Origin: Candidatus Gastranaerophilales bacterium | GTDB lineage: Bacteria > Cyanobacteriota > Vampirovibrionia > Gastranaerophilales > Gastranaerophilaceae | Assembly: GCA_944324375.1 (NCBI GenBank) | Contig: CALUWB010000020.1 | Location: 1-32,231 of the forward strand | Reading direction: 5' to 3' | Length of the DNA stretch: 32,231 nt | Shown: piece by piece, positions 3,972-27,961 of the stretch | Layout of the letters: every line of letters begins with the position of its first letter | Position numbering within the stretch: position 1 is the stretch's first letter | Position numbers and translations under genes: made by a program | The notes under the pieces: model-generated | Seen by the model: the letters and a program-made list of their open reading frames with translations, nothing else | Told to the model about the DNA's origin: nothing | Databases searched by the model: none

Positions 3972-4000
3972 TAGATATAAATTTACCCCCGATGTATAAT
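3972..4000 (+). promoter_or_regulatory. Probable alr promoter, leaderless layout
   Basis: TAGATA (3972-3977) and a perfect TATAAT (3995-4000) are separated by 17 bases. The ATG at 4007 is only six bases after the -10 element, which is about where transcription should begin. No ribosome-binding site is visible before either candidate ATG. Confidence 0.6.
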
Positions 4001-4006
4001 TTTCGT

Positions 4007-5143
4007 ATGAAAAATACAAGACAGACACAAGTAAATATTCATAGAGACGCGTGGGTAGAGGTAAATATAGATTCTTTGGCACACAATGTTGAAGAATTTA
4101 GAAAAAATATCCCATCTGATAAAAAGATATTAGGAATAGTAAAAGCTGATGCTTATGGCCATGGAGCCGCAATGTTAGTACCTACAATGTTGGCTTCAGG
4201 AATTGATATGTTGGGAGTTGCATCGATTGATGAGGGGTTAGATTTAAGAGCTGAAAATATTGATTGTGATATACTTGTAGTAGGAGCTGTACCTGTTTGG
4301 TCATTTGATGTAGCAGCAAAGAATAATATATCTATATCAATATTTACAGAAGATCATATTGAAGCTTGTAAAAAAGTATATGATAGATTTGGCTTGAAGG
4401 TAAAAGCACATATTACATTAGATACAGGCATGAATAGGATTGGTTTGCAGCCAGATAAAGCTATTGATTATATAAAACGAGTTCAGAATTGTAATTTTAT
4501 AGAATTGGAAGGTATTTTTACACATTTAGCAAATGCAGAGAATGCAGAAAAGACAAAAGCACAATTTGATAGATGGAATAAAGTTATTTCAGGAATTAAT
4601 AGAGAAGGATTAATATTACATATATTAAATACAGCAGGTAGTATGATATACAATCCTGATGATTTACATTCAAATATGGTAAGAATAGGGATATCGTTAT
4701 ATGGATTATATCCTGATTTACCAGAGAGCTTAAGATTTTATCCTAAGTTAAAACCAATAATGGGGTTGAAAGGAAGAATAACAAATATCCACAACATGCC
4801 AGTACATGATGGAGTTAGTTATGGTCATACATATATCGCAGATAGAGAGACAAAGGTTGCGACAGTTCCGATAGGATATGCAGATGGAGTACCAAGGGGA
4901 TTGTCAAATAAGATATATGGCAAGATAAATGGAATTAAGATAAAGCAGATTGGTAATATCACGATGGATCAAATGATGTTTGATATCACAGGAATTGATG
5001 CAAAGTTGGGAGATATTATAGTCTTGTTAGATGAAAACGATAGAGAGTTATCATTAGACAATTGGGCAAAGATAGTTGGTACAATCAATTACGAATTACC
5101 TTGCAGATTAAAAGTTCGCTTACCAAGAATATATATAAGATAA
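4007..5143 (+). CDS. alr: Alanine racemase
   Basis: This PLP-dependent enzyme interconverts L- and D-alanine for peptidoglycan. The PLP lysine lies in GIVKADAYGHGA near the N-terminus (K46 counting from 4007), and the catalytic tyrosine is in GVSYGHTY (Y272). The C-terminal beta domain ends with the family LPCRLKVRLPR. The length, about 378 residues, is normal. An in-frame ATG at 3992 would add five residues but overlaps the -10 element, so I prefer 4007; no Shine-Dalgarno precedes either. The gene stands alone between flagellar genes and a recombinase. Confidence 0.95.
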   Translation: MKNTRQTQVNIHRDAWVEVNIDSLAHNVEEFRKNIPSDKKILGIVKADAYGHGAAMLVPTMLASGIDMLGVASIDEGLDLRAENIDCDILVVGAVPVWSFDVAAKNNISISIFTEDHIEACKKVYDRFGLKVKAHITLDTGMNRIGLQPDKAIDYIKRVQNCNFIELEGIFTHLANAENAEKTKAQFDRWNKVISGINREGLILHILNTAGSMIYNPDDLHSNMVRIGISLYGLYPDLPESLRFYPKLKPIMGLKGRITNIHNMPVHDGVSYGHTYIADRETKVATVPIGYADGVPRGLSNKIYGKINGIKIKQIGNITMDQMMFDITGIDAKLGDIIVLLDENDRELSLDNWAKIVGTINYELPCRLKVRLPRIYIR

Positions 5144-5189
5144 GCTTGTATCGCTATTATTAGTTAGAAATTATTTTCAAAAAATACTA

Positions 5190-5214
5190 TTCTTAATTTG
5201 GAATTAAGAAGGAG
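5190..5214 (+). promoter_or_regulatory. Inverted repeat abutting the recombinase ribosome-binding site
   Basis: TTCTTAATT (5190-5198) and AATTAAGAA (5202-5210) are perfect complements around TGG, and GGAG (5211-5214) follows immediately. Part of the Shine-Dalgarno, AAGGAG, is therefore in the right arm. It may be an operator for autoregulation, possibly by the recombinase, or an RNA hairpin limiting translation. Confidence 0.55.
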
Positions 5215-5222
5215 TATGATAT

Positions 5223-5765
5223 ATGAAAATAGTAGAACCAATTCGCGATAAAGCGACAATTAAGAAGGTTGAATCAATCTTAGGAAGGAAGAATCAACGA
5301 GATTTATTATTTTTTGTTTTAGGAACAAATAGTGGTTTAAGAATATCGGACATTTTAGGTTTAGATGTAGGAGATGTAAGGAATAAAGATTTTATCGAAC
5401 TGGAAGAGCAAAAAACAGGAAAACGGAAAAAGTTTCCAATTAATTCAAAACTTAAACAACTAATAACTAAGTATATAAAAAATCGATTAGATGACGAACC
5501 ATTATTTATGACAAAATTTTTTAATAGACTTGAGCGTTGTAATGCTTATGTAATAATCAATTCAGCCTGCAGAGAAGCAGGAATAAAATATAAAGTAGGG
5601 ACCCATACATTAAGAAAAACTTTTGGATATCATCATTATCAGAAGTTTAAAGATGTAGTCATTTTACAGAAGATATTCAACCATTCATCCCCAAGCATAA
5701 CATTGAGATATATAGGAATAGAAGAAGATGAAATATTTGAAAGCTATAAAAATTTCATTTTATAA
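5223..5765 (+). CDS. Solitary tyrosine recombinase (catalytic domain only)
   Basis: This 180-residue integrase-family protein appears to consist of the catalytic domain alone, with no long N-terminal core-binding or arm-binding domain. All active-site positions are visible: R40 (SGLRISD), K64 (EEQKTGK), H128 and R131 (HTLRKT), H154 (FNHSS) and nucleophile Y163 (LRYIGI). AAGGAG precedes the ATG. No phage structural genes or excisionase lie nearby, so it is not part of an obvious prophage. It ends 24 bases before the first of two inverted 26-bp sites that bracket the promoter of the glycan operon. I therefore infer that it is an invertase for phase variation, acting like the small recombinases that flip fimbrial or capsule promoters. 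It could instead be a remnant of an integrated element. Confidence 0.88.
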   Translation: MKIVEPIRDKATIKKVESILGRKNQRDLLFFVLGTNSGLRISDILGLDVGDVRNKDFIELEEQKTGKRKKFPINSKLKQLITKYIKNRLDDEPLFMTKFFNRLERCNAYVIINSACREAGIKYKVGTHTLRKTFGYHHYQKFKDVVILQKIFNHSSPSITLRYIGIEEDEIFESYKNFIL

Positions 5766-5788
5766 ATATGATATTACATGACATAAAA

Positions 5789-5814
5789 TATAACATAATA
5801 TCCATTGTGTTATA
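5789..5814 (+). repeat. Left inverted recombination site (candidate)
   Basis: The 26-bp site reads TATAACATAAT, ATCC, ATTGTGTTATA. The two 11-bp arms complement each other at 10 of 11 positions around the asymmetric centre ATCC. This is the expected layout for a tyrosine-recombinase core site. Bases 5799-5814 (TATCCATTGTGTTATA) are perfectly inverted at 5952-5967, and 23 of 26 bases match across the full sites. Confidence 0.75.
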
Positions 5815-5951
5815 AAAAAATTAGTTTTTTGATTTTTTTTAACATATACCCCACTTTTTGAATATATTTCCAAATTTTACAATATAATTTGTTACATTAA
5901 CCTTGCATTTAAAATCGGTTATGATATCATAATGTACATAAGTTTTAGGTA
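5815..5951 (+). other. Candidate invertible promoter segment (137 bp)
   Basis: The segment lies between two inverted recombination sites, after the recombinase stop codon and before glf. It begins with A- and T-tracts (5814-5840) that might weakly end recombinase transcription, and carries the promoter described in the next entry. As given, the promoter faces the glycan operon (ON). Inversion would direct it towards the 3' end of the recombinase gene (OFF). Confidence 0.65.
5903..5930 (+). promoter_or_regulatory. Probable glycan-operon promoter inside the invertible segment
   Basis: TTGCAT (5903-5908) is followed after 16 bases by TATCAT (5925-5930). A TG one base before the -10 gives an extended -10. 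The -10 lies within a perfect 14-bp palindrome, TTATGATATCATAA (5919-5932), which could be an operator. Transcription would start near 5937, leaving a leader of about 38 bases before glf. Confidence 0.55.
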
Positions 5952-5977
5952 TATAACACAATGGATAGTTTGTTATG
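5952..5977 (-). repeat. Right inverted recombination site, overlapping the glf start codon
   Basis: This is the inverse complement of the left site at 23 of 26 positions, including 16 uninterrupted bases (TATAACACAATGGATA). Its centre is GGAT. The outer arm contains the glf ATG at 5975-5977. A crossover in the shared centre would leave that arm in place, so the start codon survives inversion. Confidence 0.75.
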
Positions 5978-7075
5978 AAGAATTTAGTAGTTGGAGCTGG
6001 GTTTTCAGGAGCAGTAATTGCAAATTTAATTGCAACTACATTAAATGAAACTGTCCTAGTTATTGATAAAAAAGACCATATTGCAGGGAATTGTTATGAT
6101 TACAGAGATAAAAACGGGATAATGATTCACAAATATGGTTCACATATTTTTCATACAAATAATGAAAAAGTTTGGAATTTTATCAAACAATTTGGGGATT
6201 TTAACCAATATATGCATAAAGTTATTGCAATTATTGATGGAATTGAAACAACTATTCCATTTAATTTCAATACCCTTTATGATGTTTTTCCACAAACAAT
6301 GGCAAAAAGGTTGGAAGAAAAACTTTTGGAAAAATTTGAGTATAACAAAAAAGTTCCAATATTAGAGTTCCAAAAACAAGATGATAAAGATTTAAAATTT
6401 TTAGCAAATTATGTATATGAAAAAGTATTCTTGCACTATACAACCAAACAATGGGGAGTAAGCCCAAATGATGTTGATGGTGCAGTAACAGCTAGAGTTC
6501 CTGTATATTTAAGTAAAGATGATAGATATTTCCAAGATAAATATCAAGGTATTCCATTAGAAGGTTATACAAAACTTGTTGAAAATATGTTGAATCATCA
6601 AAATATTGAGGTTAGATTAAACACTGATTATAAAGATATAACAGAAAACTTTGATAGAGTTTTTTATACAGGAGCTATAGATGAATACTTTGATTATGAA
6701 TTAGGACAACTACCATATAGAAGTGTTAATTTTAAATTTGAAGAATATGATAGAGAATTTTATCAAAAGAATTCTGTAGTTAATTATCCTTGCAACTATA
6801 ATTTTACAAGGATACACGAATACAAACATTATTTAAACGATAAATCAGACAAAACAGTTATAGCAAAAGAGTATTCAGAATTTTTTGAACTAGGAAAAAA
6901 TGAAAGATACTACCCTATTCCAAAAGATGAGAATACAGAGCTTTATAACAAGTATTTGGAAAAATCAAAAGGGTTGAATAATGTTTATTTTTTAGGACGT
7001 TTGGGAGATTACAAATATTATGATATGGATAAAGCAATCTTAAGAGCGATTGAGTTATTTGAGGAGATTGCTTAA
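5975..7075 (+). CDS. glf: UDP-galactopyranose mutase
   Basis: Glf is an FAD enzyme that converts UDP-galactopyranose to UDP-galactofuranose, the donor for galactofuranose in surface glycans. The N-terminus has the dinucleotide-binding signature VVGAGFSGAVIA and then VIDKKDHIAGNCYDY. Family motifs GSHIFHT and FLHYTTKQWGVSP follow, and the C-terminus ends near FLGRLGDYKYYDMDKAI. The 366-residue length is typical. The ATG at 5975 gives the canonical MKNLVVGAG start but has only a weak GGA upstream. It overlaps the right recombination site and is the first gene of the operon. Its stop overlaps the next start (TAATG), so translation is probably coupled. Confidence 0.96.
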   Translation: MKNLVVGAGFSGAVIANLIATTLNETVLVIDKKDHIAGNCYDYRDKNGIMIHKYGSHIFHTNNEKVWNFIKQFGDFNQYMHKVIAIIDGIETTIPFNFNTLYDVFPQTMAKRLEEKLLEKFEYNKKVPILEFQKQDDKDLKFLANYVYEKVFLHYTTKQWGVSPNDVDGAVTARVPVYLSKDDRYFQDKYQGIPLEGYTKLVENMLNHQNIEVRLNTDYKDITENFDRVFYTGAIDEYFDYELGQLPYRSVNFKFEEYDREFYQKNSVVNYPCNYNFTRIHEYKHYLNDKSDKTVIAKEYSEFFELGKNERYYPIPKDENTELYNKYLEKSKGLNNVYFLGRLGDYKYYDMDKAILRAIELFEEIA

Positions 7076-8151
7076 TGCCAAAAGTTTCAATTTTAGTACC
7101 AATTTATAATGTAGAGAAATATTTAAGAGAATGTTTAGATAGTTTAATCTGTCAAACATTAGATGATATAGAGATTATTTGTATTAATGATGGTTCTACA
7201 GATTCATGCGCTGAGATTTTAGAAGAATATCGTGCAAAAGACAAACGTATCCAAGTTATTAACAAGGCAAATTCAGGTTATGGACATTCAATGAATATTG
7301 GTTTGAATAATGCACGAGGCGAATATATTGGAATATTGGAATCTGATGATTTTGCAGATAGACATATGTTTATGGATTTGTATAACCTAGCCAAAGAATT
7401 TGATGCAGAGGTTGTAAAGTCTGATTGGTATAATTATTGGACATCAAAAGATACATCAATTAAACAAGGTAGAATTGCAGTAAAGAAGACTAATAAACTT
7501 ACCAATGCAAAAGAAGACAAATCTTTATTAAAAATTCAATCTTCAATATGGAGTTCAATATATAAAAGAGAGTTTTTAGAAAAAAATGATATAAGATTTT
7601 TAGAAACAAAGGGAGCAAGTTATCAAGACACTTCATTCAATTTCAAGGTAATGATGAGTGCTAAAAAAGTTGTTTTGACTCCAAAATCTTATGTTTATTA
7701 TAGACAAGATAATATAAATTCATCAGTCAGAAGTAAGGAAAAAGTTTATGCAATATGTGATGAGTATAACGAAGTGGAACGATTTATGAAATCTCATCAA
7801 GATATCGCAAATGAGTTTCAAGAATATATATATGCAATCCAGTATCGCGCGTATTTTGCAACAATGTTGAGAATAGATGAAAAATATGTTGAAGGATTTA
7901 TTGATGAATTTTCAAGAAAATTCAAAGAATTATATGATGCGAGGGTTTTAGGAGAATATTTCTTTTCAAGAAATAAAAAGAAAGAAGTATTGTGCTTGAT
8001 AAATAACAAACAGAAGTTTTATAAGATTTATCAAAGACATATGAAAAAAAATTTACTAAGGGAGAAACGAAGAAAATTATTATCAGTAAAAATAAACCCA
8101 TCCCGAGTAAGCGTAGTAGTATTTGGGAAACAGATATTGAGGATAGAATAA
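7075..8151 (+). CDS. GT2-family glycosyltransferase
   Basis: This inverting GT-A glycosyltransferase has the family 2 start VSILVPIYNVEKYLRECLDSL, with INDGSTD and the metal-binding ESDD (residues 89-92). A long helical C-terminal region follows. The last ~25 residues (LLSVKINPSRVSVVVFGKQI) are a divergent form of the peptide module found in other proteins of this locus. The start overlaps the glf stop by one base. It would add one sugar to a membrane-linked glycan precursor on the cytoplasmic face; donor and acceptor cannot be told from sequence. Confidence 0.92.
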   Translation: MPKVSILVPIYNVEKYLRECLDSLICQTLDDIEIICINDGSTDSCAEILEEYRAKDKRIQVINKANSGYGHSMNIGLNNARGEYIGILESDDFADRHMFMDLYNLAKEFDAEVVKSDWYNYWTSKDTSIKQGRIAVKKTNKLTNAKEDKSLLKIQSSIWSSIYKREFLEKNDIRFLETKGASYQDTSFNFKVMMSAKKVVLTPKSYVYYRQDNINSSVRSKEKVYAICDEYNEVERFMKSHQDIANEFQEYIYAIQYRAYFATMLRIDEKYVEGFIDEFSRKFKELYDARVLGEYFFSRNKKKEVLCLINNKQKFYKIYQRHMKKNLLREKRRKLLSVKINPSRVSVVVFGKQILRIE

Positions 8152-10137
8152 TTGCCAAAAATTAGTATAATAGTACCAATATATAGAGTAGAAAAGTATT
8201 TGAGAGAATGTTTAGATAGTATTTTATCTCAAACATTTACTGATATGGAAATTCTACTCATTGACGATGGAGGAAAAGATGAATGTCCTCAAATTATTGA
8301 TGAATATGCAAAAAAAGATTCAAGAATAGTTGCAATCCATAAACAAAATGGTGGTTATGGTCAGAGTTGTAATGTCGGTTTAGAAAGAGCTACTGGAGAA
8401 TATATTTCTATTATTGAACCTGATGATTATATAGATTCCAAAATGTTTGAAGATTTATATAATATTGCAAAACAGTATAACTCAGATATTGTAAAATCAG
8501 GATTCTATGATAATTTGCAATCAAAAGAAAAAGTTTGCTGTAAACAAGTTGAATGGAATGATTTTATTCCAGAAGATAAAAGTTTTACAATAAAAGAATA
8601 TCCATATTTTTTGCATTATCATCCAAGTATTTGGAGTTGTATTTATAAAAAAGAATTTTTAAATAAACACAATATTCGTTTTGTAGAAGCTCCAGGAGCA
8701 GGTTGGACAGATAATCCGTTCCAAGTTCAAACAATGTGCTTAGCAGAAAGAATAAATTATACATCAGATGCCTATTATTATTGGCGAAGAGTTAATGAAA
8801 ACGAATCAGAGGATTTAAAAGATTGGACAATCCCATTTAAAAGAAGTGATGAGATACATAAATGGTTAGATGAAAATAATATTAGTGATAAGAATTGTTT
8901 AGCAGCTTTATATATGCGAGAACTAGCATATATACAAATAGTTTTAGGTAAAAACTATTCAAAAGAAGAAATAAGAGATGTTTTTTCAGAGATAGAAAAA
9001 ATGACTTCAAGAATGGATATGGATATAATCCAAAATTGCTCATTTATGAAAAAACGTTTAAAGAAAAGTTTGATATTAGCCAAAACAAATTTATCAAAAT
9101 TTTATAAAAACTTGAGCTTCAAAAAATTCCGTCAGAATTTATTTAGTATTCGCTGGAACAAAGAAGAGAAAAGAATAAAAATTTTGGGATTAAAATATTA
9201 TATAAAAAAATATATGATTAGTAGCCCTATTAATTATTATAATTTATGTTTTGCTTGTAATGAAAGATATGTTCAACATCTATGTTCCACACTTAAATCA
9301 ATATTTGTAAATAAAAATCCTAATGAAAATTTTAATATAGTAATTTTAAATGAAAACATCAAGCCTAGGACTAAACGTTATATTGAGCTAATATTGCCAC
9401 AAAATTCAAAAATAAAATTTATTGATGTAAATAATGAGGTATTTAAAAATTGTCCATTAACTATTGATACTTTTCATATTAATTCTTTGACTACTTATTA
9501 TCGCTTTATATTGCCAGAAATCTGTGATTTTGATAAAGTACTATATCTGGATTGTGACACTATAGTGAACAAATCACTCTCTGGATTGTATAAAACTAAT
9601 ATTAATAATTATTACATTGCTGGGGTTATAGATAGCTATGAAAAAGAAAATTGTGAACGTCTAAGTTTAAATAAATATGTTAATGCTGGAGTTTTATTAA
9701 TAAATCTTGATTTATGGCGAAAAGATAACGTTACGCAAAGATTATTTGATTGGACAATAAATAATCAAGATAAGATAAAATGGCAGGATCAAGATGTTTT
9801 AAATGTTGTTTTACAAGAAAAAATTCTTTATTTGCCAGAAGAATATAATGCACAAGTTTCAAAATTAGAATTTGGAAATACAAAAGAATTCAATAAAATA
9901 GGATATAATGCAACGATAATCCATTATGTAGGACATCTTAAACCATGGAACGATATTGAGTTTAATTTTGGTTTAAATAATTATTATTGGAAATATTTAT
10001 TTAAATTAAACAGATTTTATATTAGAAAAATTTTATTTTTGATTAATCAACTATTTAATTTAAGGAAAAAAATAATAAAAATAAGATTTAATTCAAAAGA
10101 AAAATCAATATATATATTGGGTAATAAAATTATATAA
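8152..10137 (+). CDS. Bifunctional GT2-GT8 glycosyltransferase
   Basis: This 661-residue protein joins two glycosyltransferases. Residues 1 to ~320 are a GT2 domain (ISIIVPIYRVEKYLRECLDS, IDDGGKDE, EPDD at 89-92) closely resembling the preceding gene. Residues ~365-640 are a GT8 domain with LYLDCD (D467 and D469 as the metal-binding pair), YVNAGVLLINLDLW and KWQDQDVLN. Between them, residues 329-353 (NLFSIRWNKEEKRIKILGLK) are a copy of the locus-wide peptide module, and a weaker copy ends the protein (FNSKEKSIYILGNKI). The start is TTG at 8152, directly after the previous stop; no better start is visible. It probably transfers two sugars in succession. Confidence 0.9.
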   Translation: MPKISIIVPIYRVEKYLRECLDSILSQTFTDMEILLIDDGGKDECPQIIDEYAKKDSRIVAIHKQNGGYGQSCNVGLERATGEYISIIEPDDYIDSKMFEDLYNIAKQYNSDIVKSGFYDNLQSKEKVCCKQVEWNDFIPEDKSFTIKEYPYFLHYHPSIWSCIYKKEFLNKHNIRFVEAPGAGWTDNPFQVQTMCLAERINYTSDAYYYWRRVNENESEDLKDWTIPFKRSDEIHKWLDENNISDKNCLAALYMRELAYIQIVLGKNYSKEEIRDVFSEIEKMTSRMDMDIIQNCSFMKKRLKKSLILAKTNLSKFYKNLSFKKFRQNLFSIRWNKEEKRIKILGLKYYIKKYMISSPINYYNLCFACNERYVQHLCSTLKSIFVNKNPNENFNIVILNENIKPRTKRYIELILPQNSKIKFIDVNNEVFKNCPLTIDTFHINSLTTYYRFILPEICDFDKVLYLDCDTIVNKSLSGLYKTNINNYYIAGVIDSYEKENCERLSLNKYVNAGVLLINLDLWRKDNVTQRLFDWTINNQDKIKWQDQDVLNVVLQEKILYLPEEYNAQVSKLEFGNTKEFNKIGYNATIIHYVGHLKPWNDIEFNFGLNNYYWKYLFKLNRFYIRKILFLINQLFNLRKKIIKIRFNSKEKSIYILGNKII

Positions 10138-10152
10138 AATGGAAGGATTAAC

Positions 10153-11838
10153 ATGATTATAAATATATGTTTTTCAAGTGATAATAATTATGCAAAGCAT
10201 ATGGGAGTTGCAATTACTTCTATTCTTAAGAACTCTAATATAAATGACACTTATAATTTTTATGTTCTTGACGGTGGTATAAGTGATTCAAATAAATCAA
10301 AACTCAATTCTTTAAAAAGTACTATCAGAGATTTTTCTATTGAATATTTAGAAATAAATCCTGATGATTTTAAAAAATGTCCTATGACGGGTTATGTAAA
10401 ATATATTACACTACCAACATATTATAGGTTTAAAATCCCATCTTTATTACCCAATCTTGATAAAGTATTATATTTAGATTGTGATATTGTTGTTAATTCA
10501 GATATATCAGAACTTTATAATACTAATATAGATGATTACTATGTTGGTGGAATTCCAGAAGTTTTTAATCATCATCATAAAGAACGTTTAGAAATACTTG
10601 GAAGCTATTATTACATAAATGCTGGTGTCTTACTTATAAACACTAAAAAATGGCGAGAGGATAATATTGAAAGTAAATTATTTGAATATGCACTTAATCC
10701 TAAAAGAGAAATAATATTCCAAGATCAAGACATTATAAATGAAGTTTTAATGTACAATATTAGATATATACCATTATGTTGGAATTTACAACATGATATA
10801 TTATTTGAAGCTGAAGCATATTTAATAAATGAAAATGAGAAGAACGTAGCTTTAGAAAATCCCAAACTTGTACATTTTACACACAAATATAAGCCTTGGA
10901 ATTATAAATGTCAAAATAAATTTAGAAAACTATATTATAACTATTTAAAACAAACTCCTTGGAAAAAAGATTATTTAAAAATACGATTCATGAAAGCTTT
11001 AAGCTATATATATTCCAGAACAAAAACTCCTGAATATCAAATAACTACAATATTAGGTATAAGAATCAAAAAATATCGAATCAAGAATATTTTAAATGAA
11101 ATAAGACAAGATATAGATAAGTGTTATCATCAGGTAAAATGGCAAGAGCATCCTTTATATTGTATAAATAATGGTGTAAATACAATATTTAGATATATGA
11201 GTGGATTACAACTTACACAAAATTATCAAACTGAAAGAGTTGTTGTTTTTGAACCAAATGAAGCTCCTATTGATCATTACGAAAGATATCATTTTGTAGA
11301 AAATTATATAAATGAAAATGATGATGTATTAGATATCGCTTGTGGGGTTGGTTATGGCTCTGCACAAATTGCTAAAAAAGCAAAATCAGTTTTGGGAGTA
11401 GATATAAATCAACCGTCAATTTCTTTTGCAAATAAAATTTTTGCAAAAGAAAACTTATCATATAAATGTGCCAATGCAATAGAAGTTTCTTTTGATAAAA
11501 AATACGATAAAATTATTTCTTTTGAGACTATAGAACATATAAAAGAAGATAAATTATTTATATCAAAAATAATTAACAATTTAAAAGATGATGGGGAATT
11601 TATTTGTTCTGTCCCAAATCAAACAATATTTCCATATAATCCATTAATAGTCCCATTTCATGTAAGACATTATACAACAGAAGATATAACAAATTTATTA
11701 GAATCTTGCGGATTAAAAGTCATTGAATACTATTATCAGTATAAAAATATGGGTGAAAAAGTTCTAAAAAAAGGAACTGAAGAGGGTTACACAATTGTTT
11801 GTATTGCAAAGAAAAATAAAAGGGAATATTATGAATAA
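10153..11838 (+). CDS. GT8 glycosyltransferase fused to a SAM methyltransferase
   Basis: Residues 1 to ~280 are a GT8 domain: INICFSSDNNYAKHMGVAI, the metal site LYLDCDIVV (D109, D111), INAGVLLINTKKW and IIFQDQD. Residues ~285-315 contain part of the locus peptide module (ITTILGIRIKKY). Residues ~370-561 are a class I methyltransferase with VLDIACGVGYG (392-402), a VDIN acidic loop and SFETIEHI. GGAAGG precedes the ATG. The protein may add a sugar and then methylate it, for instance to cap the glycan; this is inference. Its end overlaps the next gene by eight bases. Confidence 0.9.
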   Translation: MIINICFSSDNNYAKHMGVAITSILKNSNINDTYNFYVLDGGISDSNKSKLNSLKSTIRDFSIEYLEINPDDFKKCPMTGYVKYITLPTYYRFKIPSLLPNLDKVLYLDCDIVVNSDISELYNTNIDDYYVGGIPEVFNHHHKERLEILGSYYYINAGVLLINTKKWREDNIESKLFEYALNPKREIIFQDQDIINEVLMYNIRYIPLCWNLQHDILFEAEAYLINENEKNVALENPKLVHFTHKYKPWNYKCQNKFRKLYYNYLKQTPWKKDYLKIRFMKALSYIYSRTKTPEYQITTILGIRIKKYRIKNILNEIRQDIDKCYHQVKWQEHPLYCINNGVNTIFRYMSGLQLTQNYQTERVVVFEPNEAPIDHYERYHFVENYINENDDVLDIACGVGYGSAQIAKKAKSVLGVDINQPSISFANKIFAKENLSYKCANAIEVSFDKKYDKIISFETIEHIKEDKLFISKIINNLKDDGEFICSVPNQTIFPYNPLIVPFHVRHYTTEDITNLLESCGLKVIEYYYQYKNMGEKVLKKGTEEGYTIVCIAKKNKREYYE

Positions 11839-12985
11839 TGTTATAAAAAAAAATAGTGTTTTTGGCTATAAGAGTTATTTCCGTGAATGTCAAAATATAA
11901 CTTTATTAAAAAATGTTTATTGGCAAAAAAAAGTTCTTAATACAGGTAATGAAATTTTTTGTGTTTTAACAACTCGTCCATTAAATATTTTAGATTGTAA
12001 TTTATATCCAAACGCTGAATATGCTCAAGATGATAATAATTGTTTAATTTGTTTACCAGCTAATATTTTTGCAAATCATGCAAAAGAATCATTAATAAAA
12101 TTAACAGAATTAATAGAGCAGTATAAATGTAGAATGTTTATTGCAAGTATAGGTGCGCAAGCAACATTGGAAGAGATGAATAATCCTAAAAAATATGCTG
12201 AAAATTTAATTCCGGAAGCAAAAAAATTCGCTAAATTAATATCTTCCAAATCTATTTCAATTGGTGCAAGAGGAGAGTTTACATATAATGTATTGCAAGA
12301 ATTGGGAATCAAAAATGTTGATTGCATAGGGTGCCCTTCCTATTTTGTGAATGGGTTTAATCAAACGGATATTTATAAAAAAGATTGGTCGAAAAAATTA
12401 AAAGTCGGTTGTTTTGCTGTTAATACTAATGATAATTTATGGCCAAAGCAAATAATGAGTGAAGCCTTACAATTAAACGATACAAAATATATAATGCAAA
12501 GTGAATTTAAAATATTACCTTATTATTTTTTTACTAACAATCATCTTTTTACAGGATTGAAGTGTATTAAAGATTTAAAATCATCAATGAAATATATAAA
12601 GAAAATGTTTGGAATATCTTATAAAGATATGCTATTTAATAATAAAGTACAAAATCTATTTGAAATATTTTTAAACATAAATAAATGGGAAGATTTTATT
12701 AAAACAAGAGATTTTGTTTTTGGAATGAGAATACATGGTTCAATAATTGCATTAAAACAGGGAATTCCTGCAATGGTAATTGCACATGATTCAAGACTCA
12801 TTGAAATGTGCGATTTATTTAATATTCCATACATTAGAATTGATGCAATAAATCCTCAAGATTTTAATTTACAAAAATTTTATGAAGAAAGTGATTATAC
12901 TTTAATGAATAAAAATTATACTAAGCTTTTAGAGAATTACATTTCATTTCTAGACAAAAATGAAATTCAACATTCTTTTAGGTAA
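11831..12985 (+). CDS. Polysaccharide pyruvyltransferase-like protein
   Basis: This protein of about 384 residues fits the polysaccharide pyruvyltransferase family (WcaK/CsaB-like), which adds ketal pyruvate to glycans. Supporting segments are FIASIGAQA, SIGARGEFTYNVLQELGI, DCIGCPSYF and, near the end, FVFGMRIHGSIIALKQGIP followed by VIAHDSR. The frame is open from 11795, but I choose the ATG at 11831 because AGGGAA precedes it and the longer version would overlap the previous gene by 44 bases. It has no copy of the locus peptide module. Some relatives are glycosyltransferase-like, so the exact reaction is less sure than the fold. Confidence 0.78.
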   Translation: MNNVIKKNSVFGYKSYFRECQNITLLKNVYWQKKVLNTGNEIFCVLTTRPLNILDCNLYPNAEYAQDDNNCLICLPANIFANHAKESLIKLTELIEQYKCRMFIASIGAQATLEEMNNPKKYAENLIPEAKKFAKLISSKSISIGARGEFTYNVLQELGIKNVDCIGCPSYFVNGFNQTDIYKKDWSKKLKVGCFAVNTNDNLWPKQIMSEALQLNDTKYIMQSEFKILPYYFFTNNHLFTGLKCIKDLKSSMKYIKKMFGISYKDMLFNNKVQNLFEIFLNINKWEDFIKTRDFVFGMRIHGSIIALKQGIPAMVIAHDSRLIEMCDLFNIPYIRIDAINPQDFNLQKFYEESDYTLMNKNYTKLLENYISFLDKNEIQHSFR

Positions 12986-13006
12986 CTTTTGGGAATAGGA
13001 GTATTA

Positions 13007-13177
13007 ATGCATAAATTATATTTAAATAGTGAAAATAAAGAAAAACATATTAATAGGATAAATCATAATTGTCTTAATAATCATTCTTTGAGTATTGATT
13101 TCATTGATGATAATCTTATTTTGCCATTTATTGATGAGATTGATGATAAAAGGAATAAATTAGGGGGGCTAAGATGA
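13007..13177 (+). CDS. Small protein of unknown function, possible gene remnant
   Basis: The 56-residue frame starts at an ATG with a good AGGAG six bases upstream, and its stop overlaps the next start (ATGA). An in-frame TTG at 12989 lacks a ribosome site. The product is rich in Asn, Asp and Ile, with no signal peptide or membrane segment. The segment DDNLILPFIDE followed by LGG loosely recalls the N-terminus of capsule-type glycosyltransferases, which would make it a truncated leftover; that is a weak impression. Its translational signals look intact. Confidence 0.45.
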   Translation: MHKLYLNSENKEKHINRINHNCLNNHSLSIDFIDDNLILPFIDEIDDKRNKLGGLR

Positions 13178-13911
13178 ACAATTTATATAATAAAATTTTG
13201 AAAAAAATTTATTATTACTCACAAGAAAAGTATGCTTTTATCCCAACACACTGGATGTCATTATTTAGCTGCTGTTATATTGTGCGTAAGAATTTATATA
13301 ATCAAATAAAAGAAAAAGCTTATTTATTCTCCGGGAAGGTTTTAGATATTGGATGTGGGCAAAAACCTTATGAATCATTATTCGAAAATTGTGAAGAATA
13401 TATTGGTCTTGATTATGATACTCCTGAAATCTCATATTCTAAAAATGTAGATTATACATATGATGGTAATACATTTCCGTTTGAAAATGATTCTTTCGAC
13501 AATATTGTATCATTTCAAGCATTAGAACATATACCAAATACGGAAAGAATATTATCAGAAACATCAAGAGTTCTAAAAAATAACGGATATTTTCTTTTAA
13601 CCTTTGCATTTGCGTATGCCGAGCATTTTAAACCTTATGATTATTATAGGTTTACCCGATATAAAATAAAAGAATTACTTGAAAATACTGGATTTGAAAT
13701 CGTTGAAATAAAAGGTTCAACAACAACATTCGAAAATATATGTCTACAAATAAATGAATTTCAATTTAATCACATAAAAAAACATTTTTTAAGATTATTG
13801 AATGCATTTTTAATAAATATTATTACGACAAAATTACTTAAAAAGTTTCCTAAAGATGATGACTTTGCAGAAGGTTGGACTATTTTGGCTAAGAAAAGGA
13901 GTAAAAAATGA
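13174..13911 (+). CDS. Class I SAM-dependent methyltransferase
   Basis: This 245-residue methyltransferase has motif I VLDIGCGQKP (residues 56-65), the acidic loop YIGLDYD, and the Methyltransf_11-type FDNIVSFQALEHIPN followed by EISRVL-like helices (ETSRVLKNNGYFLLT). It overlaps the upstream small gene (ATGA) and the downstream gene (ATGA), so all three are probably translated together. It has no copy of the locus peptide module. O-methylation of a sugar in the glycan is the natural guess from context; the substrate is unknown. Confidence 0.88.
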   Translation: MNNLYNKILKKIYYYSQEKYAFIPTHWMSLFSCCYIVRKNLYNQIKEKAYLFSGKVLDIGCGQKPYESLFENCEEYIGLDYDTPEISYSKNVDYTYDGNTFPFENDSFDNIVSFQALEHIPNTERILSETSRVLKNNGYFLLTFAFAYAEHFKPYDYYRFTRYKIKELLENTGFEIVEIKGSTTTFENICLQINEFQFNHIKKHFLRLLNAFLINIITTKLLKKFPKDDDFAEGWTILAKKRSKK

Positions 13912-14921
13912 AGTTATTTTCTGTAAAATGTACAAATAAACATAAAGTATATAATATTTGCGGAATTAAATGTAAAATTAAAAACAAAAATTTTATGATT
14001 AATTCTCCATTATGCTCTGAATTAAAAACTATATGGGAAATTTATGGACCTACAAATGAATTAATGCAAAAATTTGCATATATTGAACAAAGTAAATACT
14101 TATGGTTATATGAAGATAATAAAATATGGTTAATATACATTGCTTGTTTATTAGAAAAAAATAATAAAGCTAAAGCTCTGGAAATATTAAAGAAATATTA
14201 TATTTTTCATAAAAATAAAGATTTGAATTTGATTATTTCTGTTGCAATATTTGCAAATGAACAAAATTTTGCAGTAAAAGATATTGACAAAATTGTTTAC
14301 ATTAATAATTATTTTAAGCTAAATAGCTCAATTAAAGGTTTTATTGAATTTTGTAAAAATAAAAATATTGCTATTGTTGGAAATTCACCATCAGCAGTCG
14401 GATTAGCACAAGGTAAAAACATTGATTGTCATGATATAGTTATCAGATTTAATAATTTTAAAATTAAAGGTTATGAAAAAGATTATGGCAGTAAAGTAAA
14501 TATTTGGGTTACTACTTTTGGTGATGATGTAGAATGTAAAACTGACCAATTTAATATAATTATATATAATGTCGATATATACCATCATTTTTTAATAAAT
14601 AATAGTTTAGAAAATATATATACAAACTTAAAACGAGACATTAAACATTTTTATATAAATTATAAAATTAGAAATGAAATTTCAGAAATTTCTGAAATCC
14701 ATTATCCTATGTCTGGTACAACAATTATTTATCTATTGTATAAATATTTATCATTAAAAAATGTAGATTTGTATGGATTTAATTTCCAAAAGGCGAGTCC
14801 AGATAATTTTGCAACGCACTATTTTAGTGACAGTACTGATAATGATAGAGAAAGACGTACAAAAACACACTATTTGGCTATGGAAGATATGTTTTTAAGA
14901 AAATTAATGGAGATTAAATAA
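13908..14921 (+). CDS. GT29-like (sialyltransferase-type) glycosyltransferase
   Basis: The N-terminus (residues 1-29) is a copy of the locus peptide module (KLFSVKCTNKHKVYNICGIK). Residues ~40-130 are helical and not recognised. From ~154, IAIVGNSPSAVGLAQGKNID, then HDIVIRFNNF and GYEKDYGSKVNIW match the L-motif of family 29 sialyltransferases. PMSGTTIIYLLYKYLS and VDLYGF resemble the downstream S-motif. A His late in the protein (THYFSD) could be the catalytic base. Bacterial GT29-like enzymes need not use CMP-sialic acid, and no sialic acid synthesis genes are in the window, so the donor is open. Both ends overlap neighbouring genes (ATGA upstream, TAATG downstream). Confidence 0.75.
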   Translation: MKLFSVKCTNKHKVYNICGIKCKIKNKNFMINSPLCSELKTIWEIYGPTNELMQKFAYIEQSKYLWLYEDNKIWLIYIACLLEKNNKAKALEILKKYYIFHKNKDLNLIISVAIFANEQNFAVKDIDKIVYINNYFKLNSSIKGFIEFCKNKNIAIVGNSPSAVGLAQGKNIDCHDIVIRFNNFKIKGYEKDYGSKVNIWVTTFGDDVECKTDQFNIIIYNVDIYHHFLINNSLENIYTNLKRDIKHFYINYKIRNEISEISEIHYPMSGTTIIYLLYKYLSLKNVDLYGFNFQKASPDNFATHYFSDSTDNDRERRTKTHYLAMEDMFLRKLMEIK

Positions 14922-15310
14922 TGAAAATAAATATTTTTAAAGATTTAAATAATATATTCCATTTATTTAATCTTTTATGTAAAAATTATACAAAAAATTT
15001 TTCTAATAATATAGAAAATATTCATTTTATTACTTTTAGAAGATTCTTTCCAGATGGTGGAGCTTGTGGCGGAGAAGCTATCCAAACAGCAAACAAGGTT
15101 ATATTTGGAGATAAATTAAATAACCCATATCATGTTCGCAGTTATACTTATCATAGTTTCCAAAATGCATTACAAGATTTTGATATAATAAAAATTTATA
15201 ATCAAATATCTGGTTCTCATCTAAATACTATGCGAGAAATTGATTTAACAAATGCAGAAAACTACAAATTTACAGAATGTTTTATTGTAATTTGTAGAAA
15301 TATTAAATAA
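14921..15310 (+). CDS. Unknown protein in glycan operon, possibly truncated
   Basis: The 129-residue product starts within the previous stop (TAATG). I do not recognise a family. The middle (FRRFFPDGGACGGEAIQTAN) and DFDIIKIYNQISG look like part of a GT-B-type glycosyltransferase N-terminal domain, which would be too short to work alone. The last ~20 residues look different in character and could follow a frameshift. The next gene has its own AGGAGG and GTG start 18 bases later, so the two are not simply one broken frame. There is no signal peptide or membrane segment. Confidence 0.5.
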   Translation: MKINIFKDLNNIFHLFNLLCKNYTKNFSNNIENIHFITFRRFFPDGGACGGEAIQTANKVIFGDKLNNPYHVRSYTYHSFQNALQDFDIIKIYNQISGSHLNTMREIDLTNAENYKFTECFIVICRNIK

Positions 15311-15328
15311 GTAGGAGGAATAATATTA

Positions 15329-16546
15329 GTGACATTAATTGTACATATTTCATTGACACCTTTGGCTGGAGCACCAATTAGAATCGTTGATGCTCTTAAT
15401 AAGTACACTGATTTTTCTTGTCGGCTAATTAATTTCAATCCAGATTGCTATGGAAGAAGGACTTTTCCAGAAGATTTAATTTGGCAAAAAGAAAAAGACT
15501 TGTGTATTGAACTTATTAAAAATGCTGATATTATTCATTTTCATCATCATATAGATTTAGAAAATAATATTTTTAATATAAATTTTAAAGATTTTGCAAA
15601 GTCTGAGTGTAAATTTTTAAAACATTTTCATTCGAATAAAAGCTTTATTATAAAAACAAGAAAATATCAAAATTTTAAGAACATTAATGCTATAGTCATA
15701 GCACATTGTCCTGAAAGAACTTTTCTTTCATATATTCCTATTCCTAATATTATCCCAATTAACAATAAATTGCTTGTTCCTCAAAAAACAAATAACAAAA
15801 AAGTAAAAGTTGTTTTTTCAACTTCTTCTAAAAAATCGATGTATGAAGATAGATGGCAAACAAAAGGGTACAAAGAAGTTCATCCTTTACTTATCAAATT
15901 AAGTAAAAAACTGGGATTTGATTATCAATTAATTGAAAACATTCCTTATGAAGATGCGATGAGAATTAAGCAAAATGCAGATATTATTGTTGGTGATATT
16001 GTTACTGGTAGTTATCATTTGACAGAGTTAGAAGGTTTATCACAAGGTAAATGTGTATTAACTAAGTTAGATCCAAGAACTGTTTTGAATTGTGCTTCTG
16101 TATTAAAATGTAATGAGATTCCTTTTATTAATACAAATATCAAAACATTAGAAACTATATTAAAAATTCTTATTGAAAATGAAAAGCTTAGAAAAGAAAT
16201 CGGCCAATATTCAAGATATTGGATTGAAAAATATTATGATGATAAAATTTTAGTTCAAAATTTTGTAGAAGTTTACGAAAAACTTTTAAATAATGAAAAA
16301 ATTGGAAGAAAAGATTGTGAAAAATTTACTTTAGCTAAAGAATTTTTAAATAATGAAATTTATGACATAGAATTTAATCTTGAAAGACAAAAAATAAATA
16401 AAATAGAAAAGCACAATATAAAAATTAAAGCAATATTGCAAAATATTTTTTCTGTAAAAAATGAAATAAGAAATGGTATAAAAAGGAAACAAATTAAAAT
16501 ATTAGGTTTAAAAATAGCATTTAGGAGTAAAAAGAAGGAGAATTAA
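15329..16546 (+). CDS. GT-B-fold glycosyltransferase (GT4-like)
   Basis: This 405-residue protein begins LIVHISLTPLAGAPIRIVDAL, with ADIIHFHHHID, a pattern of GT-B N-terminal domains. The C-terminal half has VVFSTSSKKS, DAMRIKQNADIIVGD and ELEGLSQGKCVLT, with a glutamate region that normally contacts the nucleotide sugar. The last 37 residues (LQNIFSVKNEIRNG, then KQIKILGLKIAFR) are the locus peptide module. It uses a GTG start with AGGAGG upstream. A retaining transfer step is expected; the sugar is unknown. It is in the operon, four bases before the next ATG. Confidence 0.8.
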   Translation: MTLIVHISLTPLAGAPIRIVDALNKYTDFSCRLINFNPDCYGRRTFPEDLIWQKEKDLCIELIKNADIIHFHHHIDLENNIFNINFKDFAKSECKFLKHFHSNKSFIIKTRKYQNFKNINAIVIAHCPERTFLSYIPIPNIIPINNKLLVPQKTNNKKVKVVFSTSSKKSMYEDRWQTKGYKEVHPLLIKLSKKLGFDYQLIENIPYEDAMRIKQNADIIVGDIVTGSYHLTELEGLSQGKCVLTKLDPRTVLNCASVLKCNEIPFINTNIKTLETILKILIENEKLRKEIGQYSRYWIEKYYDDKILVQNFVEVYEKLLNNEKIGRKDCEKFTLAKEFLNNEIYDIEFNLERQKINKIEKHNIKIKAILQNIFSVKNEIRNGIKRKQIKILGLKIAFRSKKKEN

Positions 16547-16549
16547 CAT

Positions 16550-17356
16550 ATGAAAGTTTTAGAAAAAATTTTTTCTGTAAAAAATTCCGAAAATAGAAGT
16601 CATAAAGTTTTTACTATTTTAGGATTAAAATTTAAGTTTAAATTAAAAGATAGTAATATTATAAATATTCTTCTCGAAAATAATAAACTTATAAGAAAAA
16701 ATCAACGTTTGTTAAACAAGATAGAGAAACGAATGTATATGCTTGATATACCATTAGATTATAAAAAATTCTGGATAAATGATGATTTACAAAATATTAT
16801 TCCTCTTAATTGGGGAAAATATCCGGAAGGATTTAATCCCGGTGAAGTTATTAGCAAAGAGATTTTAAAAGATATTCCATATAATACAATAGTAGATTTT
16901 GGTTGTGGGTACGGAAGATTATCGGAAAATTTTAATCCTAAAAAATATATAGGAATTGATTTAAATTCTAAAGCTCTTGAAAAAGCAAAAGAAAATAATC
17001 CTGAGTATAATTATTTAGAAATTAACATTGATTCTGAATATCCAAAATGTGATATTGTTTTTGCATATACTGTATTTTTACATAATGATGATAAAACATT
17101 AAAATCCATTTTATGTAGATTAAAAAATACAAATTGTAAGTATATTATGATTGCTGATATTATGTCTAAAAATTGGCCAGAAAATATAATTCCTCCAACA
17201 TATCATAGAAGTGTGGAAGAATATAATACCTTAATGTCAGACATCGGTTTTTCTTTAATTCTTGAGAAACGATACCCTTATAAAAGATATGCCGAATCAG
17301 CAGAATTTAATCATTTAAATACAGATATGTCGTTCTTACTGTATAAGCAAGATTAA
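16550..17356 (+). CDS. SAM methyltransferase with N-terminal peptide module
   Basis: Residues 1-32 are the clearest copy of the locus peptide module (IFSVKNSENRSHKVFTILGL, then KFKFK). A short helical linker leads to a class I methyltransferase with IVDFGCGYGRL (114-124), IGIDLNS (134-140) and DIVFAYTVFLHND. AAGGAG precedes the start. The DNA for the module is about 90% identical to the one ending the gene at 18297, yet here it is at the N-terminus and there at the C-terminus. The substrate is unknown; a glycan sugar is the contextual guess. Confidence 0.88.
   Translation: MKVLEKIFSVKNSENRSHKVFTILGLKFKFKLKDSNIINILLENNKLIRKNQRLLNKIEKRMYMLDIPLDYKKFWINDDLQNIIPLNWGKYPEGFNPGEVISKEILKDIPYNTIVDFGCGYGRLSENFNPKKYIGIDLNSKALEKAKENNPEYNYLEINIDSEYPKCDIVFAYTVFLHNDDKTLKSILCRLKNTNCKYIMIADIMSKNWPENIIPPTYHRSVEEYNTLMSDIGFSLILEKRYPYKRYAESAEFNHLNTDMSFLLYKQD
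16568..16648 (+). repeat. DNA repeat encoding the peptide module, copy 1
   Basis: These 81 bases match 19011-19091 at all but about eight positions. They encode the IFSVKNSENRSHKVFTILG module in both genes. The flanking sequences differ entirely, so the module moved or was converted recently within the locus. Confidence 0.85.
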
Positions 17357-17388
17357 AATGTAAAACTATTAAACATGAGGTATTAACA

Positions 17389-18285
17389 ATGTCAATTATT
17401 AAATCTATCATTCAAAATATATTTTCTGTGCAAAATGATAATAATAATCATAAAGTAATAAAAATATTTTGTTTTAAAATTAAATTTAAGACTAAGAATA
17501 ATATTCAAACGTATACACCGTTTAAATATATCGAATTAAATAAATCATATTATAAAGTTAAAGAACATTGGATTTGGGATAATAACACAAATATACTAAA
17601 TGAATGGGAGCCTGAAACATATAATACTTATAAATACTTTTTAGATCCCTCAACAACGTATGTTGATATTGGTGCTTGGGTTGGATTAACTATATTTATG
17701 GCTGCTAATATTGGCGTAAAAGATATTTATGCAGTTGAAGCTAATCCTCTATCATATGATTTAGTGACAGAAAATTGTAAATTAAATAAAATAACAGAAA
17801 CAGTAAAGCTAGATAATATATGTATAACCGATAAAGATAATATAACCGTAGGTTTTGGTGGCAGAAATGATGAAAAAAATACATCTTCCGCATCTAATAT
17901 TAGAGGTAATTGCTGGCAAATTCCATCAAAAAAATTAATTACTTATCTTAATAATTATAATTTATTGTCTTCTGAAAATTTATTTATAAAAATAGATATT
18001 GAAGGTGCAGAAGAATTACTTTTAGATGATATAAAAGAGCTTGTTGCGAAAGATAATATAACAATATATCTATCACTTCATCCACCATTTATGAATAATA
18101 AAGAAGAATTTTGTAATAAATTAATAAGTTTTTGTTATGACTTTAAACAAGTTTTAGATAGCAATCTAAATTTCTTACCTAAAGAAAACCTAATAGAAAT
18201 GATTTTAACCGAAGAAAAATATCCTTCCTGGGGAACAAAATTTGGCAACTTTTTTGAAATAACTTTAACAAATAAAATTATATAG
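17389..18285 (+). CDS. FkbM-family methyltransferase with N-terminal peptide module
   Basis: Residues 1-36 carry a divergent locus module (IQNIFSVQNDNNNHKVIKIF). The rest fits FkbM-type O-methyltransferases: YVDIGAWVGLTIFMAANIG (91-109), AVEANPLSYDLVTENCKLN, and LFIKIDIEGAEELLL, the family's typical late motif. These enzymes often methylate sugar hydroxyls. A weak AUG context with GAGGT lies about ten bases upstream. It is 32 bases after the previous gene and 11 before the next, so part of the same transcript. Confidence 0.9.
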   Translation: MSIIKSIIQNIFSVQNDNNNHKVIKIFCFKIKFKTKNNIQTYTPFKYIELNKSYYKVKEHWIWDNNTNILNEWEPETYNTYKYFLDPSTTYVDIGAWVGLTIFMAANIGVKDIYAVEANPLSYDLVTENCKLNKITETVKLDNICITDKDNITVGFGGRNDEKNTSSASNIRGNCWQIPSKKLITYLNNYNLLSSENLFIKIDIEGAEELLLDDIKELVAKDNITIYLSLHPPFMNNKEEFCNKLISFCYDFKQVLDSNLNFLPKENLIEMILTEEKYPSWGTKFGNFFEITLTNKII

Positions 18286-18296
18286 GAGGTAATAAT

Positions 18297-19106
18297 ATGG
18301 GTTTTTTAAGAGAAAAATATACAAAAGAATATTTTTTAAATTATGATTGCCATGGTAATAAACTTAATTATGGAGCTTTAGGAGGTAAAGAATTTTTAAA
18401 CGGTGAAATTTATTATGATATACAAGATTCATTAGAATTAATTGATAATATTTCTGAAAAAAATATTTTAGAAATAGGTTTTGGTAGAGGAGAATCTATA
18501 AAATATTTCTATAATCATAATGCACATTCATATTATGGAATTGATTTTTCTCCTGCTTCTATAGAAATTGCGGAAGAATATATTATGCCAAATATAAAAA
18601 ATGATTCTTATGAAATTCACTGTGATGATGCACTGTTACATATAAAAAAAAATTTTAAAAAGATTAAACAAAGGAATATTAATTGTATAATTATGCTAGA
18701 TGTTATTGAACATATTCCGAATAAAGAATTAAATCAATTATTAAAATTATTTGATAAATTAGTAGAAAATGGATGTTTATTTTTAGTTCATACTCCTTTT
18801 TATGAAGTTGATGAAGATTTTTGTAAAACAAAAAAATATCTTAATCCGAGTACAAGTGATTTAATTCCTGAAACGTCTGGTATGCATTGTAATAAATTTA
18901 CTGCAAAACGATTTTATAAAACATTATCAAAACATGATTTTTTCATTTGTAAATCTGATAAATTATTTGTAAAAAAACAGACTAATAGATTAAAAAAAAA
19001 TTTTCAAATGATTTTTTCGGTAAAAAATTCTGAAAACAGAAGTCATAAAGTTTTTACTATTTTAGGGATAAAAGTTAAATTTAAAATAAAAAACAAGAAT
19101 AATTAA
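18297..19106 (+). CDS. SAM methyltransferase with C-terminal peptide module
   Basis: This 269-residue class I methyltransferase has ILEIGFGRGESI (57-68), YYGIDFSPASIE and IIMLDVIEHIPNKE. Residues ~232-269 are the locus peptide module (MIFSVKNSENRSHKVFTILG, then KVKFKIK), here at the C-terminus. GGAGGT lies seven bases before the ATG. It is the last small enzyme before the exporter. Fusion of the same tag to opposite ends of otherwise unrelated methyltransferases argues that the tag, not its position, matters. Confidence 0.88.
   Translation: MGFLREKYTKEYFLNYDCHGNKLNYGALGGKEFLNGEIYYDIQDSLELIDNISEKNILEIGFGRGESIKYFYNHNAHSYYGIDFSPASIEIAEEYIMPNIKNDSYEIHCDDALLHIKKNFKKIKQRNINCIIMLDVIEHIPNKELNQLLKLFDKLVENGCLFLVHTPFYEVDEDFCKTKKYLNPSTSDLIPETSGMHCNKFTAKRFYKTLSKHDFFICKSDKLFVKKQTNRLKKNFQMIFSVKNSENRSHKVFTILGIKVKFKIKNKNN
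19011..19091 (+). repeat. DNA repeat encoding the peptide module, copy 2
   Basis: This is the partner of 16568-16648, in the same orientation and reading frame, about 2.4 kb away. Direct orientation would allow deletion or gene conversion between the copies. Confidence 0.85.
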
Positions 19107-19165
19107 TACTTATTTTAATTCATATAAGATATTAGATACTAATGTAAATTTTTAAAGGAATAATA

Positions 19166-21935: not shown

Positions 21936-22268
21936 ATGAACGAACAGGAAATTAAGCAAAAAGTTGGAAATAAGATTAAAGATTATAGAAAATCACTAAA
22001 GCTCACTCAACAAGCTTTAGGAGATATTATAGGAATTAACCAAAGACAAGTTGCACTTATAGAAACAGGCAAATCCTTTCCTATGCTTTCTACTATGATT
22101 AAGCTTGCAGATGTTTTCAAATGTAATGTTAATGATTTCTTTGAAATTCTTGCAGAAAAACCACAACAAGAACTAACTACCCAAATTAAAACATCTATTG
22201 ATAATTGCAACCTTAAAGAGCTTAAACAAATTGATTATTTCATCAAAATCCTAAAATCAAAAGACTAA
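21936..22268 (+). CDS. XRE-family small DNA-binding regulator
   Basis: This 110-residue protein has an N-terminal HTH_3 domain (GNKIKDYRKSLKLTQQALGDI, then NQRQVALIETGKSFPMLSTM) and a ~45-residue tail without a recognised domain. It starts 94 bases after the exporter gene with only a weak AGAAAG upstream, so it may be read from the operon or from its own promoter. It could regulate the glycan locus, for instance at the palindrome in the invertible promoter; nothing in the sequence proves this. It converges with the helicase gene. Confidence 0.82.
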   Translation: MNEQEIKQKVGNKIKDYRKSLKLTQQALGDIIGINQRQVALIETGKSFPMLSTMIKLADVFKCNVNDFFEILAEKPQQELTTQIKTSIDNCNLKELKQIDYFIKILKSKD

Positions 22269-27567: not shown

Positions 27568-27820
27568 ACATTGAAAAATTAATAAAAGAGGTTGAGTAAA
27601 AAGACCTCTACCTGCGTCCTTAGTTCAGTTGCCAAGAAGAGCTTGCTCTTCGAAAGTTCAAAATAAGTTCTACCAACTGAAATAAGAACGAAACACATTG
27701 AAAAATTAATACAGAGGTTGAGTAAAAAGACCTCTACCTGCGTCCTTAGTTCAGTTGCCAAGAAGAGCTTGCTCTTCGAAAGTTCAAAATAAGTTCTACC
27801 AACTGAAATGAGAACGAAAT
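27568..27820 (+). repeat. Two tandem ~127-bp units carrying the 5' end of tRNA-Trp
   Basis: Units start at 27568 and 27695, and a third partial unit at 27821 runs into the real tRNA gene. Each holds the hairpin AGAGGT...ACCTCT and then the first 18 bases of the tRNA-Trp gene (27614-27631 and 27740-27757). A hairpin AAGAGCTTGCTCTT follows, and then an inverse copy of the first 24 tRNA bases (27667-27690 and 27793-27816) with two or three changes. The tRNA 5' piece and its inverse copy can pair within each unit. Bases 27478-27567 hold nothing I recognise. Confidence 0.85.
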
Positions 27821-27866
27821 ACATTGAAAAATTAATAAAAGAGGTTGAGTAAAAAGACCTCTACCT

Positions 27867-27939: not shown

Positions 27940-27961
27940 ATTTTATACAAAAGGAAAAAAG

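Follow-up and report, generated by a model that had tools for sequence, protein, structure and literature searches.

A self-contained cassette for probable promoter inversion ahead of a glycan operon in a Gastranaerophilales bacterium

The window analyzed here, a stretch of 32,231 nucleotides, is contig 20 in the draft genome (2.03 Mb) of a Candidatus Gastranaerophilales bacterium. In this window, a gene for a small tyrosine recombinase, two inverted sites and the short segment between them very probably constitute a self-contained phase-variation cassette that acts by promoter inversion and that is in the ON orientation as assembled. The anatomy of the locus, the conservation of the recombinase together with its inverted sites, the matched centers of paired sites, and the presence of both orientations in related genomes were established directly. 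That the copy in the window flips, that its segment carries a promoter, and that the outcome is a surface glycan switched ON or OFF were inferred. The features of the locus are as follows.

5157..5977, plus strand: portable cassette, consisting of the recombinase gene with about 66 bp upstream, both sites and the segment (from the homology borders against sister species)
5223..5765, plus strand: small tyrosine recombinase of 180 aa, catalytic domain only (from the open reading frame, PF00589, catalytic residues and fold)
5789..5814, minus strand: left recombination site, center ATCC (GGAT on the minus strand)
5815..5951, no strand: invertible segment of 137 bp and 20% G+C between the inverted sites, 82-89% identical in sister species
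5856..5926, plus strand: most conserved block, the inferred promoter (from an alignment of six loci)
5945..5949, plus strand: TTAGG, a possible ribosome-binding element in the segment (inferred from sequence; conserved where sequence reaches)
5952..5977, plus strand: right recombination site, center GGAT, overlapping the glf start codon
5975..7075, plus strand: glf, UDP-galactopyranose mutase, the first gene under the proposed switch (TIGR00031, 432 bits, above the cut-off)
7075..21841, plus strand: rest of the inferred glycan operon (open reading frames on one strand with Pfam and NCBIfam matches; operon status inferred)

The recombinase and its inverted sites

The order of the genes and sites was alr (3992-5143), the recombinase gene, the left site, the segment, the right site and glf, with 23 bases between the recombinase stop codon and the left site. 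The two 26-bp sites were inverted relative to each other, 137 bp apart, and identical at 23 of 26 positions, the first 16 in an unbroken row. Each site had the form of an 11-4-11 dyad with an asymmetric center, GGAT or ATCC, and the outer arm of the right site was less symmetric (8/11). The first-pass annotation of this DNA had described both the pair beside the recombinase and the layout of 11-bp arms around a 4-base center, and both descriptions were correct. When the 400 bp downstream of the recombinase were scored for inverted repeats, the top score was 19, which was never reached in 1000 dinucleotide shuffles (maximum, 15). No 400-bp tile elsewhere in the window scored above 19, and scores of 18 and 17 were present. 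The inverted site pair beside the recombinase is beyond chance. At up to 3 mismatches the pair occurred once in the draft genome, in which the only further site copy was an unpaired palindrome with 1 mismatch at C17, common to the window's genome, G002, G003 and G005. The locus has the layout of an inverton, in which a short stretch bounded by inverted repeats lies upstream of a gene.

A five-codon open reading frame, ATGGATAGTTTGTTATGA (MDSLL), was located in the right site at window positions 5961-5978, and its stop codon overlapped the glf ATG. The same reading frame was present in G007 and G005. In G002:C144, an equivalent ATGGAT seemed to serve as the start of the gene itself.

The recombinase matched Pfam Phage_integrase (PF00589) with an E value of 1.5e-24, and R40, K64, H128, R131, H154, and Y163 were invariant across 28 homologues. 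Its predicted structure (mean pLDDT 87) consisted of a single catalytic domain, a separate core-binding domain being absent, and the fold of the model matched those of XerA, XerH, lambda Int, and Cre. The R-K-H-R-H-Y set and the integrase fold identify the protein as a tyrosine recombinase. Membership of the FimB/FimE type was not supported by either of two models (NF007371, 41.5 bits with a cut-off of 222; NF007370, 28.6 bits with a cut-off of 221), nor was membership of XerC, XerD, or XerA (61-89 bits with cut-offs of 220-335), the match being confined to the C-terminal part of each of the latter models. The best phage family was the phrog_216 integrases (E 1.5e-55), and homologues of 41-68% identity were found on viral contigs. 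Because the family is common on viral contigs (IMG/VR loci L293-L372, in that same range of identity), the switch enzyme may derive from a phage. A few homologues were found in records of Helicobacter, Tenuibacillus, and Paenibacillus. The one from Helicobacter sp. 13S00401-1 (L245) was 60% identical, which suggests transfer between phyla, and no inverted pair was found adjacent to it.

The cassette in relatives and traces of inversion

The cassette, about 830 bp in length, recurred in sister species (Candidatus Gastranaerophilales) before unrelated glycan operons. Homology began about 66 bp ahead of the recombinase start codon and ran to the right site, and the flanks outside these borders differed: alr and glf in the window, other genes and a nucleotidyltransferase gene in G007, and an epimerase-like gene and a GT2 gene in G005 (flanking genes of G007 and G005 were named from their first residues). 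In G007, G005, and G002, the same pair was found beside an orthologous recombinase (85-95% identity), and the segments were 82-89% identical to that of the window; in G003, the left site was present and the contig ended inside the segment. The window, G007, and G005 had in common that the right site overlapped the start ATG. According to the first-pass annotation, a lack of conserved inverted sites next to the recombinase in relatives would have counted against the switch; the sites were conserved in G007, G005, and G002, and this check did not refute the switch. Its proposal of a switch for galactofuranose glycan is well supported as far as the switch is concerned, whereas galactofuranose belongs only to the version in this species, the cassette itself being generic.

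Across the family, 66 recombinase homologues had enough downstream sequence to be assessed; a strong inverted pair was present within 450 bp downstream in 18 of them and in 4 of 1320 control stretches. At 59% identity or higher, 16 of 29 homologues had such a pair downstream, and most of those under about 59% had no adjacent pair. Site sequences varied between recombinases, and several close homologues had no adjacent pair (e.g., G004:C9 and G001:C29). Contigs ended within 600 bp of the recombinase downstream in 12 cases and upstream in 4, with 2.7 expected for each. A 55-bp inverted match between the recombinase and a GT2 gene in G032 and G053 (L062 and L072) was not counted; L072 was without a site pair.

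Traces of inversion were found in relatives, in three cases. In G130, two loci (C7:12964-13366 and C8:91968-92370) had flanks of 97-99.6% identity in the same orientation, and the 378-bp segment between their identical sites matched, at 363 of 378 positions, only as the reverse complement. On contig C111 of G002, the right site was followed by 74 bp, at the contig end, that were the perfect reverse complement of the recombinase-side flank, site included. Judged from its sequence, this junction is what the flipped state would give; a hairpin produced in assembly could also account for it, but there would be no reason to expect one exactly at the site. Between G001 and G004, the gene-proximal end of the segment at an AlgX-like gene in the former corresponded to the far end in the latter (E 1e-29); a short repeat that recurs at other loci forms part of this comparison. 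At a second orthologous locus, that of a gene of 1818/1960 codons, a stretch of roughly 120 bp was inverted. None of these traces came from the window's own genome, and inversion in the window's species was not observed because no reads or strain-level genomes are available for it. At least 11 sites were no more than 100 bp from the end of a contig, about 50 times the expected 0.21, a value computed with rounded contig numbers. Repeats or mixed orientations can cause contigs to break at sites; a 24-bp repeat alone should not.

It is unlikely that the switch is a relic, dead in the window's species with the operon locked ON, despite three observations that would fit. G007 and G005 showed the same visible orientation as the window, as did G002 and G003 on their recombinase side; the outer arm of the right site was only 8/11 symmetric; and apparently locked derivatives occurred. 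One of these, G006:C76:7275-7479 (L092), combined the C-terminal part of a recombinase with one site and a glf gene and is apparently a naturally locked switch; in the other, G002:C144, the conserved block lay after alr and before another open reading frame or operon, with the recombinase and left site absent. Against a relic, the recombinase reading frame and all its catalytic residues were intact, and the right-site changes AGTTTGTTATG look conserved rather than decaying because they are common to the window, G007, and G005.

Scattered sites in related genomes

In G001 and G004, close orthologues of the recombinase (77-80%) stood among other genes without sites, and window-type sites at up to 2 mismatches numbered 14 and 17, respectively, with 1 and 0 for a control pattern. 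Four genomes of other genera (G119, G130, G138, and G158) contained 6-25 sites of related type. G119 yielded no site at its recombinases and had its pairs elsewhere, and in G158 one pair lay beside the recombinase and two elsewhere. Many pairs with common arms per genome were found in G004, G001, G119, G130, and G158; the window's genome, with one pair, is not multi-locus in this sense. In 30 near pairs from eleven genomes, all of them inverted, there were no mismatches at 120 center positions and 26 at 600 arm positions. The probability of no center mismatch at the arm rate is 0.005. Thirteen distinct 4-base centers were found among the pairs, and unlinked contig ends could be paired by center: C7 with C11 of G004 by GATT, and C57 with C59 and C23 with C2 of G001 by AGGT and TGGT, respectively. 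Centers were also reused, ACAT in seven pairs of G130 and GTAT in three of G158. Not all loci have private centers, and therefore insulation between loci would be partial.

The genes adjacent to sites encoded glycosyltransferases, a nucleotidyltransferase, acyltransferases, an AlgX-like protein, very large LysM/FHA proteins, a type IV pilin-like protein, and an RHS-repeat protein, and also BioG and DnaJ. Some pairs lay between divergent genes (G004:C14 and G004:C2, and G001:C57/C59 as inferred from two contig ends). Single unpaired sites were present in G004 and G001, at least one with a mutated partner (G001:C57:4815 and near 5028).

In some relatives, one free-standing recombinase probably acts in trans on numerous pairs whose arms are common and whose centers are often locus-specific, as is inferred from the shared window-type arms and from recombinases unlinked to pairs. 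We lean slightly towards a wider interpretation, in which promoter switches in several Gastranaerophilaceae would be run in trans by a single free-standing tyrosine recombinase, with arms of about 10 bp shared among loci and the 4-base center serving as the address. Paired sites would then recombine with each other and rarely across loci, surface genes would flip independently, and the cassette of the window would be the single-locus form.

The sites might alternatively be attachment sites at which the recombinase inserts, excises or exchanges cassettes, as an integrase or transposon would, with inversion as a by-product. Cassette borders that are sharp against differing flanks (G000, G007, G005/G003, and G002), the similar segments at several loci in G130 and G158, three direct sites in G004:C14, and the closeness of the protein to phrog_216, with homologues on viral contigs, can be read this way. 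We consider it improbable: 30 of 30 near pairs were inverted with matched centers, an arrangement that yields inversion, not excision; the inverted orientation between fixed flanks was observed in G130; and no empty and occupied site with a recombinase was found.

Two arrangements of sites are recorded separately. The region G004:C14:53-333 (L157), between the divergent start of an FdtA-like gene and a nucleotidyltransferase operon, contained four GGAT sites, one inverted and three direct at 46-57 bp from one another, so that nested inversions or deletions are possible. In G130 (L184-L190), several loci, some of them beside type IV pilin-like genes, carried similar segments with palindromic ends, about 400 bp long or in some cases about 290 bp; the segments look like a spreading invertible element.

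The segment, the glycan operon and the proposed switch

The conserved block of the segment contained TTTGTTACAT at 5888-5897 and a -10-like TATGAT at 5920-5925, which was invariant in the alignment of six loci. There was no strong -35 element, and the consensus score was at chance level: eight promoter-like matches were found, 7.1 were expected from shuffled sequence, and matches of similar quality were also present inside the operon. Identification of the promoter by consensus scan was rejected, as the scans did not single out any promoter. The segment had been credited in the first-pass annotation with the only good promoter of the operon, which is untenable from the consensus because matches were as frequent as in shuffled sequence. 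Assignment of the block as a promoter is thus an inference that rests on its conservation among relatives and not on a consensus score. A terminator scan of both strands of the segment found none. The glf start lies within the last bases of the right site. All gene-like open reading frames from glf to 21841 were on the same strand, and the products of the inferred operon included GT2, GT8, and GT29 glycosyltransferases, a pyruvyl transferase, methyltransferases, and an MsbA-like exporter with an N-terminal extension; a gene for a small HTH protein came next.

In the proposed mechanism, the 180-aa recombinase would bind the 11-bp arms of both inverted sites, cleave around the asymmetric GGAT center and invert the 137-bp segment. 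In the assembled orientation, the putative promoter and the ribosome-binding-like AGG are directed towards glf, with the right site overlapping its start codon, and for this reason the glycan operon of about 16 kb is taken to be ON. In the flipped orientation, the promoter would point towards the 3' end of the recombinase gene, glf would follow an A+T-rich stretch that lacks the AGG, and the operon would be OFF. The flipped junction on the recombinase side is predicted to read as the left site followed by TACCTAAAACTTATG. Control after initiation instead, as in the RecV switches of Clostridioides difficile (PMC5386303), has little in its favor, in that the chance-level promoter consensus and the AGG in the segment, through which inversion alters the leader, are consistent with it, but the terminator scan found none on either strand, the conserved block is kept 5' of another operon in G002:C144, as fits a promoter, and some pairs lie between divergent genes (G004:C14 and G004:C2, with G001:C57/C59 inferred).

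Promoter inversion of this kind resembles several known systems. The FimB/FimE recombinases of Escherichia coli, which are about 180-200 aa in size, are likewise small tyrosine recombinases beside a promoter segment between inverted repeats (fimS). The window recombinase differs in that it scored far below the NCBIfam cut-offs of the two FimB/E-like models, is one enzyme and not two, and precedes a glycan and not a fimbrial operon. The phrog_216 phage integrases were the best family match, but there were no phage genes around the window recombinase, and its adjacent sites form an inverted pair. Mpi of Bacteroides fragilis, a serine recombinase, and RecV, a tyrosine recombinase, both act on several switches; at least 13 inverted regions are assigned to Mpi, whose sites share a 10-bp consensus (PMC5903667, PMC5386303). 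The scattered sites resemble the Mpi regulon, with one recombinase and many inverted promoter segments genome-wide, many of them at surface polysaccharide loci. Mpi is a serine enzyme, whereas the system described here involves a tyrosine recombinase in another phylum, conserved arms, and a center that varies with the locus; the window enzyme, moreover, is local and has one pair. RecV, too, is a tyrosine recombinase, and it acts in trans to invert several switches (PMC5903667, PMC5386303). The RecV-dependent cwpV and flg repeats, when compared, had no recognizable common sequence, and control is exerted after initiation (PMC5386303), whereas the sites described here have common arms and the control element inferred is a promoter.

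The switch is of a known kind (Mpi, RecV, and FimB/E), for which no description in this group was found in open-access papers. In the open-access literature, nothing was found on phase variation, invertible promoters or DNA inversion in Melainabacteria or Gastranaerophilales, or on invertons in cyanobacteria, and open-access papers contained no description of common arms with locus-specific centers under a tyrosine recombinase in this bacterial group. The Gastranaerophilales are non-photosynthetic gut bacteria of a little-studied cyanobacterial group, known mostly from metagenomes; the present finding adds a surface-variation system to what is known of them, and it is one that metagenome reads reveal directly. 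The switch sites also help to explain the breakage of assemblies at certain loci. As a natural set in which the arms are common and the centers differ, the sites lend themselves to testing how tyrosine recombinases discriminate among targets, and are a potential source of mutually insulated inversion sites.

Three other features of the window were noted. The small HTH_3 protein at the end of the operon (21936-22268) resembled a 41% identical protein encoded first after the switch in G006:C51 (L057) and a 43% identical one near the recombinase in G016:C8 (L070); this regulator was rejected as a partner of the recombinase, as it was near recombinases in only two clear loci, which is too few. A tandem 126-bp repeat (2.5 copies, 96%) at 27568-27884 ran into tRNA-Trp (27866-27940), ahead of secE-nusG. 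At the window edge (32008-32204, plus strand), an array of 36-bp repeats was found in coding sequence of a lysine/proline/glutamate type.
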